Assembly (NCBI GenBank): GCA_016866355.1
Contig: VGMN01000005.1
Coordinates: 1 to 64,000 of the forward strand
Origin: Bacteroidota bacterium
GTDB taxonomy: Bacteria; Bacteroidota; Bacteroidia; Chitinophagales; Chitinophagaceae
DNA: 64,000 nt
Direction: 5' to 3'
Positions 25,441 through 32,194 of the stretch are shown one piece after another (positions within the stretch are counted from its first letter, which is position 1; each line of letters starts with the position of its first letter). A program made the position numbers and the translations under genes. Below the pieces are notes generated by a model. It was not told the origin of the DNA. It did not search any database and saw nothing but the letters and a program-made list of their open reading frames with translations.

Positions 25441-27471
25441 ATGATTTCACCCGCTAGCGTACAACAGATAATGGCACGTGCAGACATCACTGATGTGGTG
25501 GGTAGTTTTGTCAAATTAAAAAAACGCGGAACAAATTTATTAGGCCTCTGCCCATTTCACAATGAAAAAACTCCCTCTTTTACCGTTTCACCCGCCAAAG
25601 AAATTTACAAATGCTTTGGCTGTGGGAAAAGCGGAAATGTAGTGAGTTTTGTGATGGAGCATGAGAAATATAGTTACCCTGAAACATTAAAATGGCTTGC
25701 ACAACGCTACCAGATTGAAATAGAAGAAACGCAGTTAAATGAAGAACAACAACAAGCGTTGCAAGCGGCTGACAGTTTGTTTGCCCTAAATCAATTTGCA
25801 CAACAGTTTTTTTCGCAGCAACTTTTAGAGACAGAGGAAGGAAAGGCTATTGGCTTGAGCTATTTTGAGGAGCGAGGTTTCAGTAAAGACACCATCCACA
25901 AGTTTCAATTGGGATACAACCCTGAGTCAAAGGATACTTTTACAAAAGCTGCCTTACAGCAACAGTTCAACCCTACGTTACTTCAAAAAGCAGGCTTGGT
26001 TGCAAATCGGTATGATCAATTACAAGATAATTACCGCGGCAGAGTCATTTTTCCAATACATAATCATAGCGGAAAAGTAGTAGGATTTGGCGCACGCATT
26101 CTGAAATCATCCGAGAAAGCTCCAAAATATATAAACTCGCCTGAAAATGAAATCTATGTAAAGAGTAAGATTTTATATGGTTCATATTACGCCAAACAGA
26201 CCATTGATAAATTAAATGAGTGCTTATTGGTTGAGGGATACACGGATGTGCTTTCCTTGCATCAGGCTGGTATTGAAAATGTAGTTGCCTCCGGTGGAAC
26301 TGCCCTCACTATTGACCAAATACGATCCATAAAAAAATACACGAAAAATCTCACCATTGTATACGATGGAGACCAGGCTGGTATAAAAGCGGCCCTACGA
26401 GGTTTAGACCTTGCATTAGAAGAAGGAATGACCGTGAAGTTGGTATTGATTCCGGATGGGGATGATCCTGATAGCTATGTAAACAAAGTTGGCGCAACTG
26501 CTTTTCGTGATTTTGTAAATAAAAATAAAAAGGATGTAATCCTTTTTCAGTTAGATGTGGCACTGCGAGAAGCGGGTTCAGACACGGGTCAAAAAGCAGC
26601 GGTAGTTAATAGAATTGCTGAGTCAATCTCTAAAATAAATAAAGCGGAAGACTTTACTAAGCAACAAGATTATATAAAGGAGTGTGCGGCACTTCTCAAA
26701 ATTGAAGAAGCAGGTTTACATCACTTGGTAAACAAGTTTATCAGAGATCGTATTGCACAACAAGAAAAAAAATTAACATTTGAGGAGGCTAAACAGTTTG
26801 AAGAAAATGCTAAACAGTCCGCTGCGGCTGGATATGATGACGCAACTTTCTCACTGTTATTCAAAGACGATTTACAAGAAAAAGAAGTAGCTAGAATACT
26901 ATTGGAATTTGGGTTTCTACCTTGGCTAAACGGCCAGTCTGTTGCTGACTATGTTTTTGAGGAAATTGATGAAAACTTATTGGAAAATGAAGAGGTTAAA
27001 AAAATATTTCACACGTATCGTACAGCAGTACAACATGGAAACCCTCCACAAGGACCTCAGCTATTTGTTCATCACCCAGATCAGCAAGTAAGTGCTTTTG
27101 CTGTGTCATTATTACATTTCCCACACGAAGAAAGCGGTCGCTGGAGGCAGGATTTTAGTCAGACACAGGGCTATCAATCTAGCCTGTTTGAAAAAGAATA
27201 CGAAGAATTTATTGCTACGCTAGCACCTGAAAAGAAAGAGAGTTTGCTAAATTATTTACAATCAGAGGAAGATAAATCCCCGAATGCTATTCGATCAGCT
27301 ATTCACTATTTAAAGCTCCGAAAAATTAAGCGAATGTTGCTTGAAAATCAACGAGACCTAGAAAACGAAAAGAACCAGCAGGAGATTACCATCATGCTGC
27401 AAACACATGAACACCTAAAAAAAGTTGAAAAAAGCCTAGCTGCCAGCGTAGGCTCTGTAATTATCCGTTAG
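25441..27471 (+). CDS. dnaG: DNA primase
   Basis: 676 residues. CHC2 zinc finger CPFHNEKTPSFTV..CFGCGKSGN (about 38-65), RNA polymerase/TOPRIM domain with LLVEGYTD and VASGGTALT (about 262-290) and YDGDQAG (about 308), then a C-terminal helicase-binding region (from about 450). It makes RNA primers for lagging-strand synthesis. There is no rpsU or rpoD beside it, unlike in many Proteobacteria. The last 11 bases overlap the 3' end of the convergent DUF3052-like gene. Confidence 0.96.
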   Translation: MISPASVQQIMARADITDVVGSFVKLKKRGTNLLGLCPFHNEKTPSFTVSPAKEIYKCFGCGKSGNVVSFVMEHEKYSYPETLKWLAQRYQIEIEETQLNEEQQQALQAADSLFALNQFAQQFFSQQLLETEEGKAIGLSYFEERGFSKDTIHKFQLGYNPESKDTFTKAALQQQFNPTLLQKAGLVANRYDQLQDNYRGRVIFPIHNHSGKVVGFGARILKSSEKAPKYINSPENEIYVKSKILYGSYYAKQTIDKLNECLLVEGYTDVLSLHQAGIENVVASGGTALTIDQIRSIKKYTKNLTIVYDGDQAGIKAALRGLDLALEEGMTVKLVLIPDGDDPDSYVNKVGATAFRDFVNKNKKDVILFQLDVALREAGSDTGQKAAVVNRIAESISKINKAEDFTKQQDYIKECAALLKIEEAGLHHLVNKFIRDRIAQQEKKLTFEEAKQFEENAKQSAAAGYDDATFSLLFKDDLQEKEVARILLEFGFLPWLNGQSVADYVFEEIDENLLENEEVKKIFHTYRTAVQHGNPPQGPQLFVHHPDQQVSAFAVSLLHFPHEESGRWRQDFSQTQGYQSSLFEKEYEEFIATLAPEKKESLLNYLQSEEDKSPNAIRSAIHYLKLRKIKRMLLENQRDLENEKNQQEITIMLQTHEHLKKVEKSLAASVGSVIIR

Positions 27472-27871
27472 CCACTACAGCCCCTACTTCACAGCGAGTA
27501 AAGCGGAGAGCGCTCCACACATGATCCAGCTCAATCCTATCAATACTCTCGTAACCGCCACCAGTCAGCTGATTCCAACTAGATTCACGATTTAAGTCTG
27601 TAACTATCTTAGAAGTTGCTTTAGGATAAGCTACCCAAAATTTAGAATTTTTCTTTAGGGAAGGCATCACATCTCTCAGAATACCATTTAGTTGCACTTC
27701 ATTAACTGCAAAAATTAAAGCAAAATCAATTTTACGGCTTTTTAGCAAGGGCGTGACATTCTTTGCAAAAGAAAGCTTGCTAAATTGTTTTTCGATAGAA
27801 GAGGGTAAGCCCTGAATAAGTAAGTTTTTCTCGTCGTTCAGCTGCAATTTTTCAAAAAGGGACTGGGACAT
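27461..27871 (-). CDS. DUF3052-like protein
   Basis: 136 residues, acidic N-terminal half, no signal peptide. It resembles the DUF3052 family: opening LQLNDEKNLLIQGLPSSIEKQF, an internal DFALIFAVNEVQL strand and KFWVAYPKATSKIVTDLNRESSW, which corresponds to the family's most conserved 'W-V-AyPK..S....D.n' block. The function of the family is unknown. It is probably monocistronic, with 126 bases between its ATG and the plsY stop; that spacer holds only a weak promoter-like TAACTTTA. It overlaps dnaG tail to tail by 11 bases. Confidence 0.6.
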   Translation of the reverse strand: MSQSLFEKLQLNDEKNLLIQGLPSSIEKQFSKLSFAKNVTPLLKSRKIDFALIFAVNEVQLNGILRDVMPSLKKNSKFWVAYPKATSKIVTDLNRESSWNQLTGGGYESIDRIELDHVWSALRFTRCEVGAVVANG

Positions 27872-27997: not shown

Positions 27998-28666
27998 TCA
28001 TCCGCGCTGTTTCTTCCTTTCTAAACGTTCTTGTTTTTTTCGACCCCTGCCCTTTAAAATGGAGGCTTTTGTTTCTTCCCCTCTAATCAGCCTCCCTATA
28101 TTTTTTTGATGGGTTAGCACAACCATCAAAGCAACTGCTATAGCAAAAACTCTGTACAAAGGGTTCTCCACATTGAATACAACAAGAATAAAAATTGGGA
28201 AAGCGATACTTGCTAAAATTGAGCTCAATGATACAAATCGGGTAAGGTAAAGCACCAGTAAAAATATGCCTGCACAACTTACAGCAGTAATTGGCGAGAT
28301 GCCTAATACCATGCCAAAGACTGTAGCCACTCCTTTCCCACCCTTGAATTCAGCCCATAGGGGAAATATATGCCCAAGTACAGCCGCCATCCCCAAACCG
28401 GTCTGCAGGTTTTGAAATTGAATCTCTATATCCAGGTATTCAGGAAGTAACCATGCTAACTGTACAGCTAGTACTCCCTTCAACATATCTATTAACATAA
28501 CAAAAGTGCCCCATCTAGAACCTAATACGCGATATACATTAGTGGCACCCGCATTGCCACTTCCATAGTCACGAATATCAATGTTAAAAAAACGTTTACT
28601 CACCCACACAGAGGTAGGAACACTCCCTATCAGATAGGCCAATAATATGAGTAGCAGCTCATTCAT
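27998..28666 (-). CDS. plsY: Glycerol-3-phosphate acyltransferase PlsY
   Basis: 222 residues with several membrane helices. Conserved blocks are LAYLIGSVPTSVWVSK (first helix and motif 1 serine), DIRDYGSGNAGATNVYRVLG (motif 2, phosphate loop) and HIFPLWAEFKGGKGVATVFG (motif 3). It acylates glycerol-3-phosphate from acyl-phosphate, the first committed step of phospholipid synthesis. The plsC-type second acyltransferase is at 63 kb. The C-terminal ~25 residues are unusually rich in Lys/Arg (GRGRKKQERLERKKQRG) and would lie in the cytoplasm. Confidence 0.95.
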   Translation of the reverse strand: MNELLLILLAYLIGSVPTSVWVSKRFFNIDIRDYGSGNAGATNVYRVLGSRWGTFVMLIDMLKGVLAVQLAWLLPEYLDIEIQFQNLQTGLGMAAVLGHIFPLWAEFKGGKGVATVFGMVLGISPITAVSCAGIFLLVLYLTRFVSLSSILASIAFPIFILVVFNVENPLYRVFAIAVALMVVLTHQKNIGRLIRGEETKASILKGRGRKKQERLERKKQRG

Positions 28667-28724
28667 GCTTTAAGAGGTGCCCAAAAATATAATAATTAGG
28701 TAACACACTGAAAAAAAGCCGAAA

Positions 28725-29549
28725 CTACACCCCTGCTTTATTAAACAAAATTGACAGCCATTCATCTTTATGTAAAATGGTGACCATCGATAGGTTGGCA
28801 TCTTTGGCAGCTTGAATTAATAAGTCCTGGTCCTCTTTTAAAAAACCACTAATTAAAACACTGCCAGCAACGCTTAAATTTTTGGATAGTGTGGGTATAA
28901 ATTTTAGCAACACGGAGCGATTAATATTTGCAAATATCAAGTCAAATTGTACATTGTCAGGCGGATATGCTGCTGTTTCTAGTTGTACACCTGCAGTATG
29001 ATTTAGTAATAAATTTTCTTTGGCATTTTCAATACTCCATCTATCATTATCAATTGCCAACGTATAAGAGGCACCCATTTTATCAGCCAATATGGCTAAT
29101 ATACCGGTGCCAGTACCAAAATCTAATACCCTTTTATTTCTAAGCTCAAGCTTTTGCATTTGTTGGATCATCAAAAATGTAGTAGCGTGATGACCTGTGC
29201 CAAAACTCATTTTTGGGTTAATAATAATTTCATGTGTTACTTCTTTCACCGGAGCATGAAATGTTGCTCTGATCACAGCAAAATTTTCAACATAAACTGG
29301 ATGGAATGAAGATTCCCACCTTTCATTCCAATTGGTTGGTTCAATGTGTTTGATTGAAAAAGAACAACCTTGACTGCTACATAGCTCGGCTACCACAACG
29401 GGTTGAAAATTGGCAGCTGGTATATAAGCCTTTAAGCAATTTATCTCCTCCAAGAATCCAGTATACCCATTCTTATCCAATGTAGCAATAAAAAAAGAGG
29501 ATTGCTCTTGACCGCTACTCTCAATTAACACTTCGATGTATGTTTCCAT
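28725..29549 (-). CDS. prmA: Ribosomal protein L11 methyltransferase
   Basis: 274 residues from ATG 29549 (METYIEVLIESSG). N-terminal L11-recognition domain (about 1-90), then a class I SAM methyltransferase core: MSFGTGHHATT, VLDFGTGTGILAILA (SAM motif I, near 148), AIDNDRWSIENAKEN and FDLIFANIN (motif IV). It trimethylates L11. The start is a real choice: the in-frame ATG at 29573 would put MTRKGHFF in front, but that sequence is the stem of the pnp terminator. From 29549 the start codon directly follows the terminator's T-run. Confidence 0.93.
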   Translation of the reverse strand: METYIEVLIESSGQEQSSFFIATLDKNGYTGFLEEINCLKAYIPAANFQPVVVAELCSSQGCSFSIKHIEPTNWNERWESSFHPVYVENFAVIRATFHAPVKEVTHEIIINPKMSFGTGHHATTFLMIQQMQKLELRNKRVLDFGTGTGILAILADKMGASYTLAIDNDRWSIENAKENLLLNHTAGVQLETAAYPPDNVQFDLIFANINRSVLLKFIPTLSKNLSVAGSVLISGFLKEDQDLLIQAAKDANLSMVTILHKDEWLSILFNKAGV

Positions 29550-29575
29550 AAAAAAATGACCCTTGCGGGTCATTT
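29550..29575 (-). terminator. Intrinsic terminator of pnp, ending at the prmA start codon
   Basis: 9-bp stem AAATGACCC/GGGTCATTT (29554-29562 with 29567-29575), a GCAA tetraloop on the transcript and a T-run of 7 bases. It begins three bases after the pnp stop, and the T-run ends immediately before prmA ATG 29549. Confidence 0.85.
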
Positions 29576-29578
29576 AAA

Positions 29579-31750
29579 TTATTCATTTGTTTCACCAGAA
29601 TCAGAAGCTGTTCGCTCAGGTTTTGGAAGTAACGCTTTTCTTGATAATTTAAATTTACCTGATTTTGGATCTGTTCCAATTAGTTTAACCTTCATAAGAT
29701 CGCCCTCTTTTACGAGACCGTCCAGTGTTTCCAGTCTTTTCCAACTTACTTCACTAATGTGAACCAATCCTTGTTTTCCGGGTAAAAACTCAACAAATGC
29801 ACCAAATGGCATAATTGATTTAACCACTGCATCATAGGTATCACCAATTTGAGGGACAGCCACAATACCTTTAATCCAGGCTACGGCTTTATCTACACTT
29901 TCTTTGTTGGTGCTGAATATACTTACCTCACCACGATTATTAACCTCTTCAAGATTAATAGTAGTTCCGGTTTCTCGTTGAATTTCCTGTATTACTTTAC
30001 CACCGGGCCCGATTACAGCACCAATAAATTCTTTATCGATAAATAATTTGACCATTCTTGGCGCATGCGGCTTCACATCCTCTCTAGCGGCAGGTATACA
30101 AGCATACATCGCATCCAGGATATGTAAACGTCCACGGCGAGCTTGATCAAGGGCCTGACGCATCACCTTCATTTTTAATCCATCAACCTTGATATCCATC
30201 TGAACACCACAAATTCCATCTCTAGTCCCCGTTACTTTAAAATCCATATCACCCAAGTGATCCTCATCCCCTAAAATATCTGTAAGAATTGCGTACTTAT
30301 CCCCTTTTGTAATCAATCCCATAGCAACTCCAGATACGTGTTTGGGTATGCCAACACCCGCATCCATCAAAGCAAGAGAACCAGCACAAACTGTAGCCAT
30401 AGAAGAAGAACCATTTGATTCCAGGATATCACTTACCACACGTACTGTATATGGAAAATCGCCTGAAGGCATCATTTGCTTTAATGACCGCTGAGCTAGA
30501 TTTCCATGGCCTACTTCACGACGGCTTTGTCCACGCATCATTTTGACTTCACCGGTAGAAAAGGGAGGAAAATTATAATGCAAATAGAATTTTGAATCCA
30601 CAGATTTTGCAGCACTCTCCACTAATAATTCATCCAAAGGAGTTCCCAGTGTTACTGTGGTTAAGGATTGTGTCTCACCACGTGTAAACAAGGATGAGCC
30701 ATGTGGTGAAGGAAGCACATCTACTTCCATATCGAGCGGACGAACAGTCTCCAATGCTCTGCCATCCAGCCGAACGCGTTCGTCCAAAATCATATCACGA
30801 ACTACATCATATTGCAGATCGCCATAATAAGTGTTCGCTAACTTCTTTGTAAGATCTGGCAAACTGTCCGTTTCCGCGAGCCCTGCATCCTGCTTCAGAT
30901 AGGCGATTAGCTCTTGCTTAATGGTATCAAAGCGCTCACTACGTTCATGCTTACTGAAAGCACCTTTTGCCACCTCATATACTTTTAGTTGCGCAAATGC
31001 ATAAATCTTATCTCTAAGTGCTATATCTGAAGCCGGTTTTGTATACGTTCTCTTCTCAGATACACCAGCCAATTTACCTAACTCGTGTTGCGCCTTGATT
31101 TGAATTCGAATGGCATCGTGTGCTAATTCCAACACCTTACACAAATCTTCTTCACTACACTCCTGCGCCTCTCCTTCCACCATCATCAAATTCTTTTCAG
31201 TTGCAGCAATGATAAAGTCCATATCAGAACTTTCCATTTGCGTACGGGTTGGGTTGATAATAAACTCACCACTTACCCTTGAAACGCGAACTTCGGAAAT
31301 CACCTCTTTAATTGGAATATCAGAAACGGCCAACGCTGCAGAGGCTGCCAGACATGCTAACGCATCAGGCATGATTTCAGGATCACTTGAAACCAGTGTT
31401 ACTAATACTTGTACATCACAAAAATAATCTTCAGGGAAAAGTGGACGCAGCGCGCGGTCAATTAAGCGGCTGGTTAATACCTCGTAATCATTTAGTTTGG
31501 CTTCACGCTTGAAAAAAGAACCCGGGATACGACCAGCGGCCGCAAATTTTTCTTGATAATCTACCGTCAGTGGAAAGAAACTTTGTCCTTCTTTGGGTTC
31601 CTTATTTGCCACCGCTGTTGCTAAGATTACACAATTTCCCATGCTTACTGTTACAGCTCCATCAGCTTGACGAGCTAAGCGGCCAGTTTCTAAAGTGATT
31701 TCACGTCCTTCACCTAATTTAAAGGTGGTACGAATTGGTTGTTTTAACAT
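29579..31750 (-). CDS. pnp: Polyribonucleotide nucleotidyltransferase (PNPase)
   Basis: 723 residues. Two RNase PH domains (about 10-235 and 310-545) around a helical domain. The second has FSTGEVKMMRGQSRREVGHGNLA and the catalytic region around GDEDHLGDMDFKVTGT. Then KH (FIGAVIGPGGKVIQEIQRETGTTI, about 560-620) and S1 (GDTYDAVVKSIMPFGAFVEFLPGKQGLVHISE, about 630-700) RNA-binding domains. A 3'-5' phosphorolytic exonuclease in mRNA decay. It lies downstream of rpsO, the classical order, with a 10-bp hairpin in the spacer that may be an RNA processing or autoregulation site. Confidence 0.97.
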   Translation of the reverse strand: MLKQPIRTTFKLGEGREITLETGRLARQADGAVTVSMGNCVILATAVANKEPKEGQSFFPLTVDYQEKFAAAGRIPGSFFKREAKLNDYEVLTSRLIDRALRPLFPEDYFCDVQVLVTLVSSDPEIMPDALACLAASAALAVSDIPIKEVISEVRVSRVSGEFIINPTRTQMESSDMDFIIAATEKNLMMVEGEAQECSEEDLCKVLELAHDAIRIQIKAQHELGKLAGVSEKRTYTKPASDIALRDKIYAFAQLKVYEVAKGAFSKHERSERFDTIKQELIAYLKQDAGLAETDSLPDLTKKLANTYYGDLQYDVVRDMILDERVRLDGRALETVRPLDMEVDVLPSPHGSSLFTRGETQSLTTVTLGTPLDELLVESAAKSVDSKFYLHYNFPPFSTGEVKMMRGQSRREVGHGNLAQRSLKQMMPSGDFPYTVRVVSDILESNGSSSMATVCAGSLALMDAGVGIPKHVSGVAMGLITKGDKYAILTDILGDEDHLGDMDFKVTGTRDGICGVQMDIKVDGLKMKVMRQALDQARRGRLHILDAMYACIPAAREDVKPHAPRMVKLFIDKEFIGAVIGPGGKVIQEIQRETGTTINLEEVNNRGEVSIFSTNKESVDKAVAWIKGIVAVPQIGDTYDAVVKSIMPFGAFVEFLPGKQGLVHISEVSWKRLETLDGLVKEGDLMKVKLIGTDPKSGKFKLSRKALLPKPERTASDSGETNE

Positions 31751-31817: not shown

Positions 31818-31846
31818 TTTGCCAATACCTAGCGGATATTGGCAAA
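31818..31846 (-). other. Hairpin in the rpsO-pnp spacer
   Basis: Perfect 10-bp inverted repeat TTTGCCAATA/TATTGGCAAA with a 9-base loop, midway between the rpsO stop and the pnp ATG. No T-run follows immediately on the minus strand, so it is a poor terminator and a better candidate for an RNase site or attenuating structure, as known for pnp leaders elsewhere. Confidence 0.6.
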
Positions 31847-31870: not shown

Positions 31871-32140
31871 TTATTTACGGATTCCCAACTTCTCAATCAA
31901 TTGGCGATAGCCAGTCAGGTTATGCTTTTGCAAATAATTTAGTAAGCGTTTACGCTTTCCAACAAGTTGCATCAGTCCACGGTGGGTAGAGAAGTCTTTT
32001 TTGTTGGCCTGTAAATGACCACTAATGTGTGTAATACGCTCAGTAAGTAGGGCAATTTGACCCTCAATAGAGCCTGTGTTTTTTGCAGATCCTGCAAATT
32101 GAGTAACAATGCTTGTTTTCTTTTCTTTTGTAAGAGGCAT
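31871..32140 (-). CDS. rpsO: 30S ribosomal protein S15
   Basis: 89 residues, standard length. Family blocks GSIEGQIALLTERITHISGHLQANKKDFSTHRGLMQLVGKRKRLLNYL are all present. S15 binds the central domain of 16S rRNA and helps join the subunits. The start MPLTKEKKTSIVTQF is conventional. The transcript should begin at the near-consensus promoter at 32195-32224, leaving a leader of about 50 bases that carries a repeated TCGGATGAA. pnp follows. Confidence 0.97.
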   Translation of the reverse strand: MPLTKEKKTSIVTQFAGSAKNTGSIEGQIALLTERITHISGHLQANKKDFSTHRGLMQLVGKRKRLLNYLQKHNLTGYRQLIEKLGIRK

Positions 32141-32194
32141 CTTAAAAGTTTTAATTTTTCATCCGATTAGCCGATTCATCCGACATCAGGGGTG

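Follow-up and report, generated by a model that had tools for sequence, protein, structure and literature searches.

The window analysed here, a stretch of 64,000 nucleotides from a Chitinophagaceae genome of the Bacteroidota (contig VGMN01000005.1), carries on its minus strand four genes in the order rpsO, pnp, prmA and plsY. The rpsO gene (31871-32140) encodes ribosomal protein S15 and lies upstream of pnp (29579-31750), which encodes polyribonucleotide nucleotidyltransferase (NCBIfam TIGR03591, scoring 911.5 bits where the cut-off is 525). Next comes prmA (28725-29549, with its ATG at 29549), the gene for the ribosomal protein L11 methyltransferase (NF001785, 291 bits against 188), followed by plsY (27998-28666), which encodes a glycerol-3-phosphate acyltransferase (TIGR00023, 186.6 bits against 137.2). 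Exact copies of the promoter element considered below are found on the same strand before rpsO (TAACTTTG, 32202-32195) and 23 nt before the plsY ATG (TATTTTTG, 28682-28689), the latter serving as a control promoter. Other minus-strand features of the region include a 12-pair hairpin with a poor U-run between rpsO and pnp (31818-31846), a weak match to the Rfam S15 leader at the rpsO start (32084-32190; 21.3 bits, gathering score 39.5, E 0.12), and, 3' of plsY, an ORF of 136 amino acids (27461-27871) without a Pfam or NCBIfam match.

Between the pnp stop codon (TAA, 29581-29579) and the prmA ATG (29549-29547) lie 29 bases, and within them is a terminator hairpin of 9 bp with a GCAA loop (29554-29575), as read directly and by folding. 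Three T residues (29578-29576) follow the stop; then come the first arm AAATGACCC (29575-29567), the loop (29566-29563) and the second arm GGGTCATTT (29562-29554), and a run of seven T (29556-29550), which occupies positions -1 to -7 of prmA, abuts the start codon. Four of the nine stem pairs are G-C. Because three of the T residues also take part in the outermost A-T pairs of the stem, the structure is to be counted either as 9 bp followed by four T or as 6 bp followed by seven. The initial annotation had described a 9-bp stem, a GCAA tetraloop and seven T; its placement of the hairpin three bases past the pnp stop, with the T-run reaching the ATG, is borne out, but the stem and T-run it counted separately overlap by three T. 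The full stem thus begins 3 nt after the stop codon, or 5 nt by the scoring of the terminator scanner, and the alternative in-frame ATG reported inside the stem is indeed present, at 29573-29571.

The predicted energy of the hairpin is -12.4 kcal/mol alone and -12.9 with its flanks, which makes it the third weakest of 32 post-gene terminators (median -16.8) in a genome sample of 461,793 bases, or 26% of the 1.76-Mb genome, with background genes taken from a simple ORF rule. Under a strict definition of a terminator (seven Watson-Crick pairs, at least four of them G-C, then TTTTTT), this hairpin alone was found on the minus strand of 12 kb, and none in 200 Markov resamplings; a looser scan of the same 12 kb gave no excess (10 found, 10.4 expected). 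A shuffle test was moderate (z -1.9, with 7 of 200 shuffles folding equally well) and was run on a 71-nt plus-strand copy, the complement of the transcript; the transcribed strand was folded without shuffles. A repeat element was considered and rejected, the 14-nt core occurring once in the genome and, even with two mismatches allowed, a single time in the window. Between 27000 and 33000 no Rfam family was hit at its gathering score (the best match at the junction reached 24.5 bits against 64), and no competing fold common to seven related species was seen by eye in single-sequence folds.

Conservation is stronger evidence for a real hairpin than the folding score. Across the seven related species the 12-nt core TGACCC/GGGTCA is identical, and the loops read GCAA, GCAA, GCGA, GAAA, GTGA, GCAT and a 5-nt CTAGC, of the GNRA type in five of the seven; the comparison among relatives that had been proposed from the sequence has thus found a constant stem core and a variable loop. 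The bases next to the pnp stop vary as well, and pairwise comparisons over 20-codon windows of pnp put the divergence at fourfold sites at 39-69% (five of the seven species). In one species (L005) a stem A-T pair has become G-U, with pairing retained and the in-stem ATG lost. The distance from stop to stem is 5-7 nt as scored in the seven species, the window having 3 nt (5 as scored).

The junction is unusually tight. In the genome sample a terminator lies within 15 of 233 codirectional gene pairs, and the pnp-prmA hairpin is the nearest to the following ATG, at 6 nt, the next nearest being at 20, 23 and 31 nt (one of the 15 pairs lacking a usable distance). Its stop-to-stem distance of 5 nt as scored is the second smallest of the 32 terminators, whose median is 22 nt; when stems are extended by A-U pairs, three other terminators of the 32 lie at 5 nt or less from the stop, one of them entering its gene. 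A relative, G023, has terminators in 24 of 130 codirectional pairs, and in three of these, pnp-prmA included, the terminator stops no more than 15 nt short of the following ATG. Such tight junctions therefore occur elsewhere, but are rare. Within the genus the hairpin lies no more than 15 nt from the ATG at 29 of 37 prmA junctions versus 2 of 36 other codirectional terminator junctions (Fisher p 8e-11, the test being made on non-independent genomes and the background being drawn from samples of two genomes).

The genus comprises 42 genomes, of which 40 gave a match and 39 were examined (G002 and G005 had no match and G016 a single weak hit of 35%). The pnp gene lies upstream of prmA at all 39 loci, a terminator was detected between the two in 37, and at 29 of these 37 a spacing of 6-15 nt separates the end of the hairpin from the prmA ATG. 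No terminator was detected at the other two of the 39. At L013 (G021) the prmA frame has no ATG, GTG or TTG from the last upstream stop to 40 nt past the start of the match, which indicates an error in the sequence or a start codon of non-standard type; at L248 (G031) 21 nt separate the stop of pnp from the prmA ATG, a layout like that of a simple operon. Counts of junctions with no terminator are upper bounds, since the scanner is blind to stems with mismatches or several G-U pairs, of which L124 looks to be a case.

In the wider family (194 genomes, 188 with a match) 89 loci from other genera were examined: the 29 best-scoring, 58 intended as one per uncovered genus, and L161 and L162, with some genera repeated. 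Upstream of prmA, pnp was found at 59 of the 89, a terminator was detected at 46 of these 59, and 18 of the 46 lie within 15 nt of the ATG. The 30 loci where pnp was not found are explained in part by short stretches (1726, 930 and 201 bases at L220, L231 and L238); the stretch at L213 is only 787 bases, yet pnp is present. A further 80 named loci, labelled mostly Chitinophagaceae or Bacteroidetes, were scanned and kept out of the counts because several are identical contigs (L031 and L002, for example). Among the family's 47 compact loci there are 21 different inner stem arms, so that position is conserved more than sequence. These loci have a median stop-to-stem distance of 11 nt (range 4 to 64), versus 22 nt at the 29 loci where hairpin and ATG are at least 40 nt apart (p 3e-6, uncorrected), and their hairpins are slightly weaker than the other 36 (-12.4 versus -13.9 kcal/mol; p 0.02). 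At L006, L007 and L011 the gap between pnp and prmA extends to about 500-800 nt and contains ORF-like sequence; at L006 and L011 the terminator remains near pnp. At 27 class-level loci from outside the family the prmA flank showed no pnp, which suggests that the linkage of pnp and prmA is characteristic of the family. The upstream ORF at 19 of these 27 (L163-L189) has a TpiA-like C-terminal sequence, and all three tested by NCBIfam are TpiA, such that prmA seems to have switched neighbours in the family of the window.

Transcription of prmA was addressed through the -7 box of Bacteroidota, TAnnTTTG (PMC9723704), which was used in place of an E. coli-type sigma-70 scan, uninformative for this phylum. 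In this genome the motif is about eight times denser before genes preceded by a gap of 100 nt or more than in the sense strand of coding sequence, at 2.66 versus 0.33 per kb, but the exact form is present in only 27% of such upstream regions, so a prmA promoter may have been missed. At loci with both genes a box lies within 80 nt upstream of plsY in 54 of 59 and of prmA in 4 of 59; the corresponding values are 29 and 1 of 30 for the genus subset and 25 and 1 of 26 for compact loci. Where pnp was not found upstream, prmA has a box at 12 of 28 loci, versus 7 of 97 behind pnp (p 3e-5, uncorrected; L161, L162 and L238 were left out of this comparison). Behind pnp the motif was found at 3 of 53 compact loci (30 nt or less), 2 of 29 wide ones and 2 of 15 with no terminator found; prmA genes with a wide gap, too, mostly lack it, and the lack of a recognisable promoter thus tracks position behind pnp and not compactness. 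There is no exact box within 400 nt 5' of prmA at any of 18 hand-picked compact loci (L038, L049 and L071 of the named set among them), nor in the examined 3' part of pnp (538-1486 nt) at 27 of 30 genus loci, and the boxes at the other three sit 745-1366 nt before the stop. The sole exact TAnnTTTG between 28725 and 32200 of the window is inside pnp on the minus strand (31419-31426), some 320 nt past its start.

The initial annotation had offered three routes to prmA: read-through, a promoter within pnp, or initiation on a message whose 5' end is a terminator stem. Read-through is now favoured, the promoter-in-pnp route being without an exact motif at the same 27 genus loci; the strong promoter inside pnp that was named as counter-evidence could not be recognised in the pnp 3' part, where promoters of other types may exist. 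With no visible promoter of its own, prmA is probably supplied by transcription leaking through the pnp terminator, and read-through from the rpsO-pnp side would be the simplest source. The arrangement itself is real, conserved and unusually tight. The reading we consider likely, on the genomic comparisons, is that the intrinsic terminator of pnp acts as a weak, partial terminator within a pnp-prmA unit, and that polymerases passing the weak hairpin would go on to transcribe a promoterless-looking prmA.

The start region of prmA bears on how much protein such a message might yield. Bacteroidota rarely use Shine-Dalgarno pairing. In Flavobacterium johnsoniae initiation is favoured by A at positions -3, -6, -12 and -13 and by low structure from -20 to +20 (PMC6847099). 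The corresponding prmA positions are U, U, G and G, but the absence of A from all four is shared by 64 of 328 genes in this genome. Read-through mRNA would carry the hairpin and U-run in the prmA initiation region, which may keep PrmA below the level of PNPase. Low PrmA output is plausible for the clade of the window and is no rule for the whole group: in the 9-15 nt class 19 of 30 loci have A at -3, and in the class with 8 nt or less 15 of 17 have T. The "low, regulated" prmA level that had been suggested would fit a weak stem and structure beside the AUG. PrmA is 60.6-72.2% identical to its four nearest homologues (L002-L005), and PNPase and PlsY of the same loci are 94.7-98.0% and 90-96% identical; the faster divergence of PrmA fits low expression, among other explanations.

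A further step, which we put forward tentatively, would make the terminator gated by translation. The footprint of the ribosome extends about 10 nt beyond the A site. A ribosome finishing pnp, with its stop codon 3-5 nt before the stem, would cover the 5' arm and hinder its folding, so that read-through may depend on pnp translation, rising when pnp is closely translated and falling when ribosomes lag; the terminating ribosome would set hairpin folding, and prmA would be transcribed mainly when a ribosome closely follows the polymerase. There is precedent in E. coli, where shortening the distance between a stop codon and the terminator behind it from 28 to 5 bp lowered termination from about 90% to less than 10%, and where uncoupled translation abolished terminator repression (PMC4824070). 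Stop-to-stem distances of 4 to 64 nt among compact loci mean that such blocking cannot be equally strong everywhere. Median distances of 22 nt for the 32 terminators of this genome and 20.5 nt for 28 of G023 would, as a proxy, fit transcription-translation coupling, and Bacteroidota do not figure among the phyla that PMC13323073, in the text available, classes as runaway.

A plainer account, short of probable and yet a serious contender, holds that the hairpin has no function beyond forming the 3' end of pnp, that prmA drifted close to it, and that read-through has no regulatory role. It overlaps with the partial-terminator reading on read-through itself and differs from it solely on function, and the likelihoods given here accordingly do not sum to one. 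The terminator stays behind pnp at every distance from prmA, from 6 to more than 1000 nt, which indicates that it belongs to pnp, as plain compaction would have it; the genome is also small, although genus members of up to 5.5 Mb have the same synteny. Compaction accounts less readily for the rarity of such tightness at other codirectional terminator junctions (the 2 of 36 above), or for a prmA without a recognisable promoter even at wide-gap loci with room for one. If prmA were instead served by a promoter towards the 3' end of pnp, either weak or of a type not recognised here, the hairpin would lie in the 5' leader of its transcripts and would be expected to end those as well. The modest reach of the -7 box in this genome leaves space for this, and among 16 windows of pnp the one that covers its last 20 codons diverges least at fourfold sites (0.39, the next being 0.42); we nevertheless think it unlikely, given that the same motif detects plsY so regularly and is missing from the 400 nt before prmA at the 18 hand-picked compact loci and from 27 of the 30 pnp 3' parts examined in the genus.

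Two other readings place the start of the message or of the protein at the hairpin. A leaderless prmA mRNA beginning at 29549, from a promoter overlapping the hairpin, has a parallel in the 5.5% of flavobacterial mRNAs with mapped starts that are leaderless (PMC9723704), but needs a -7 box about 5-12 nt before the ATG, where the window has no TAnnTTTG match; with the motif within 80 nt of prmA at a single one of the 26 compact loci, this reading is hardly credible. That the in-stem ATG at 29573 is the true PrmA start, and the hairpin coding sequence, seems very improbable, although the codon is in frame and 24 nt upstream in six of the seven clade species. L252 retains this spacing despite changed lengths of loop and T-run. 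L005 has GTG there, out of frame; loci outside the clade carry unrelated stems; and changes fall in the loop, as expected of an RNA hairpin. The conserved N-terminus at 29573 that was held to speak against the junction is, by the same observations, absent, and a conserved N-terminal extension of PrmA was rejected, L005 losing both frame and ATG. In the PrmA alignment (A1) homologues align from the METYIEV position, but the starts of the other 26 proteins had been set at whichever ATG lay closest to the match, and the seven-species clade is thus the better test of the N-terminus. Within that clade (loci L252, L256 and L005), the spacing kept in L252 and the joint loss of frame and ATG in L005 may reflect a tendency to avoid an AUG that is out of frame.

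Partial terminators inside operons, which fix the ratios between genes, are already known from clostridial ABC importer operons (PMC9045158) and from operons of Methanococcus maripaludis (PMC10450193). The partial-terminator reading of pnp-prmA shares with these, as the cited accounts present them, a terminator between codirectional genes and a downstream gene dependent on read-through. It differs in that its hairpin touches both the upstream stop and the downstream start, in a phylum poor in Shine-Dalgarno sequences, and in that we infer the read-through. As in the E. coli tR2 reporter of PMC4824070, the stem begins a few nt past a stop codon; unlike the reporter, described there as having a 79-bp insulator between terminator and RBS, the site is natural and conserved, and a start codon follows at once. 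The short stop-to-stem distance at pnp-prmA also recalls genomes with runaway transcription, in which terminators lie close to stop codons (Johnson et al. 2020, as cited in PMC7858274 and PMC13323073), from which the present genomes are set apart by their sample medians and by the place of Bacteroidota outside the runaway list as given in PMC13323073. No account of the pnp-prmA terminator junction was found in the literature searched; the kind of arrangement is known, and this variant differs in that the footprint at the stop codon, the terminator and the start region all three overlap.

The pnp-prmA junction offers a small, natural test of ribosome control over intrinsic termination in Bacteroidota, with plsY as an adjacent control that has a promoter. 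If the partial-terminator reading is true, operon predictions that take terminators as boundaries would break up units of the pnp-prmA type, and a promoterless gene would have been retained behind a terminator across the genus, its stems replaced and its place kept. If gating by translation is true as well, the U-run would double as the prmA initiation region, and a junction of 29 nt would link methylation of L11 both to the coupling of transcription with translation and, by way of pnp control, to the level of PNPase.
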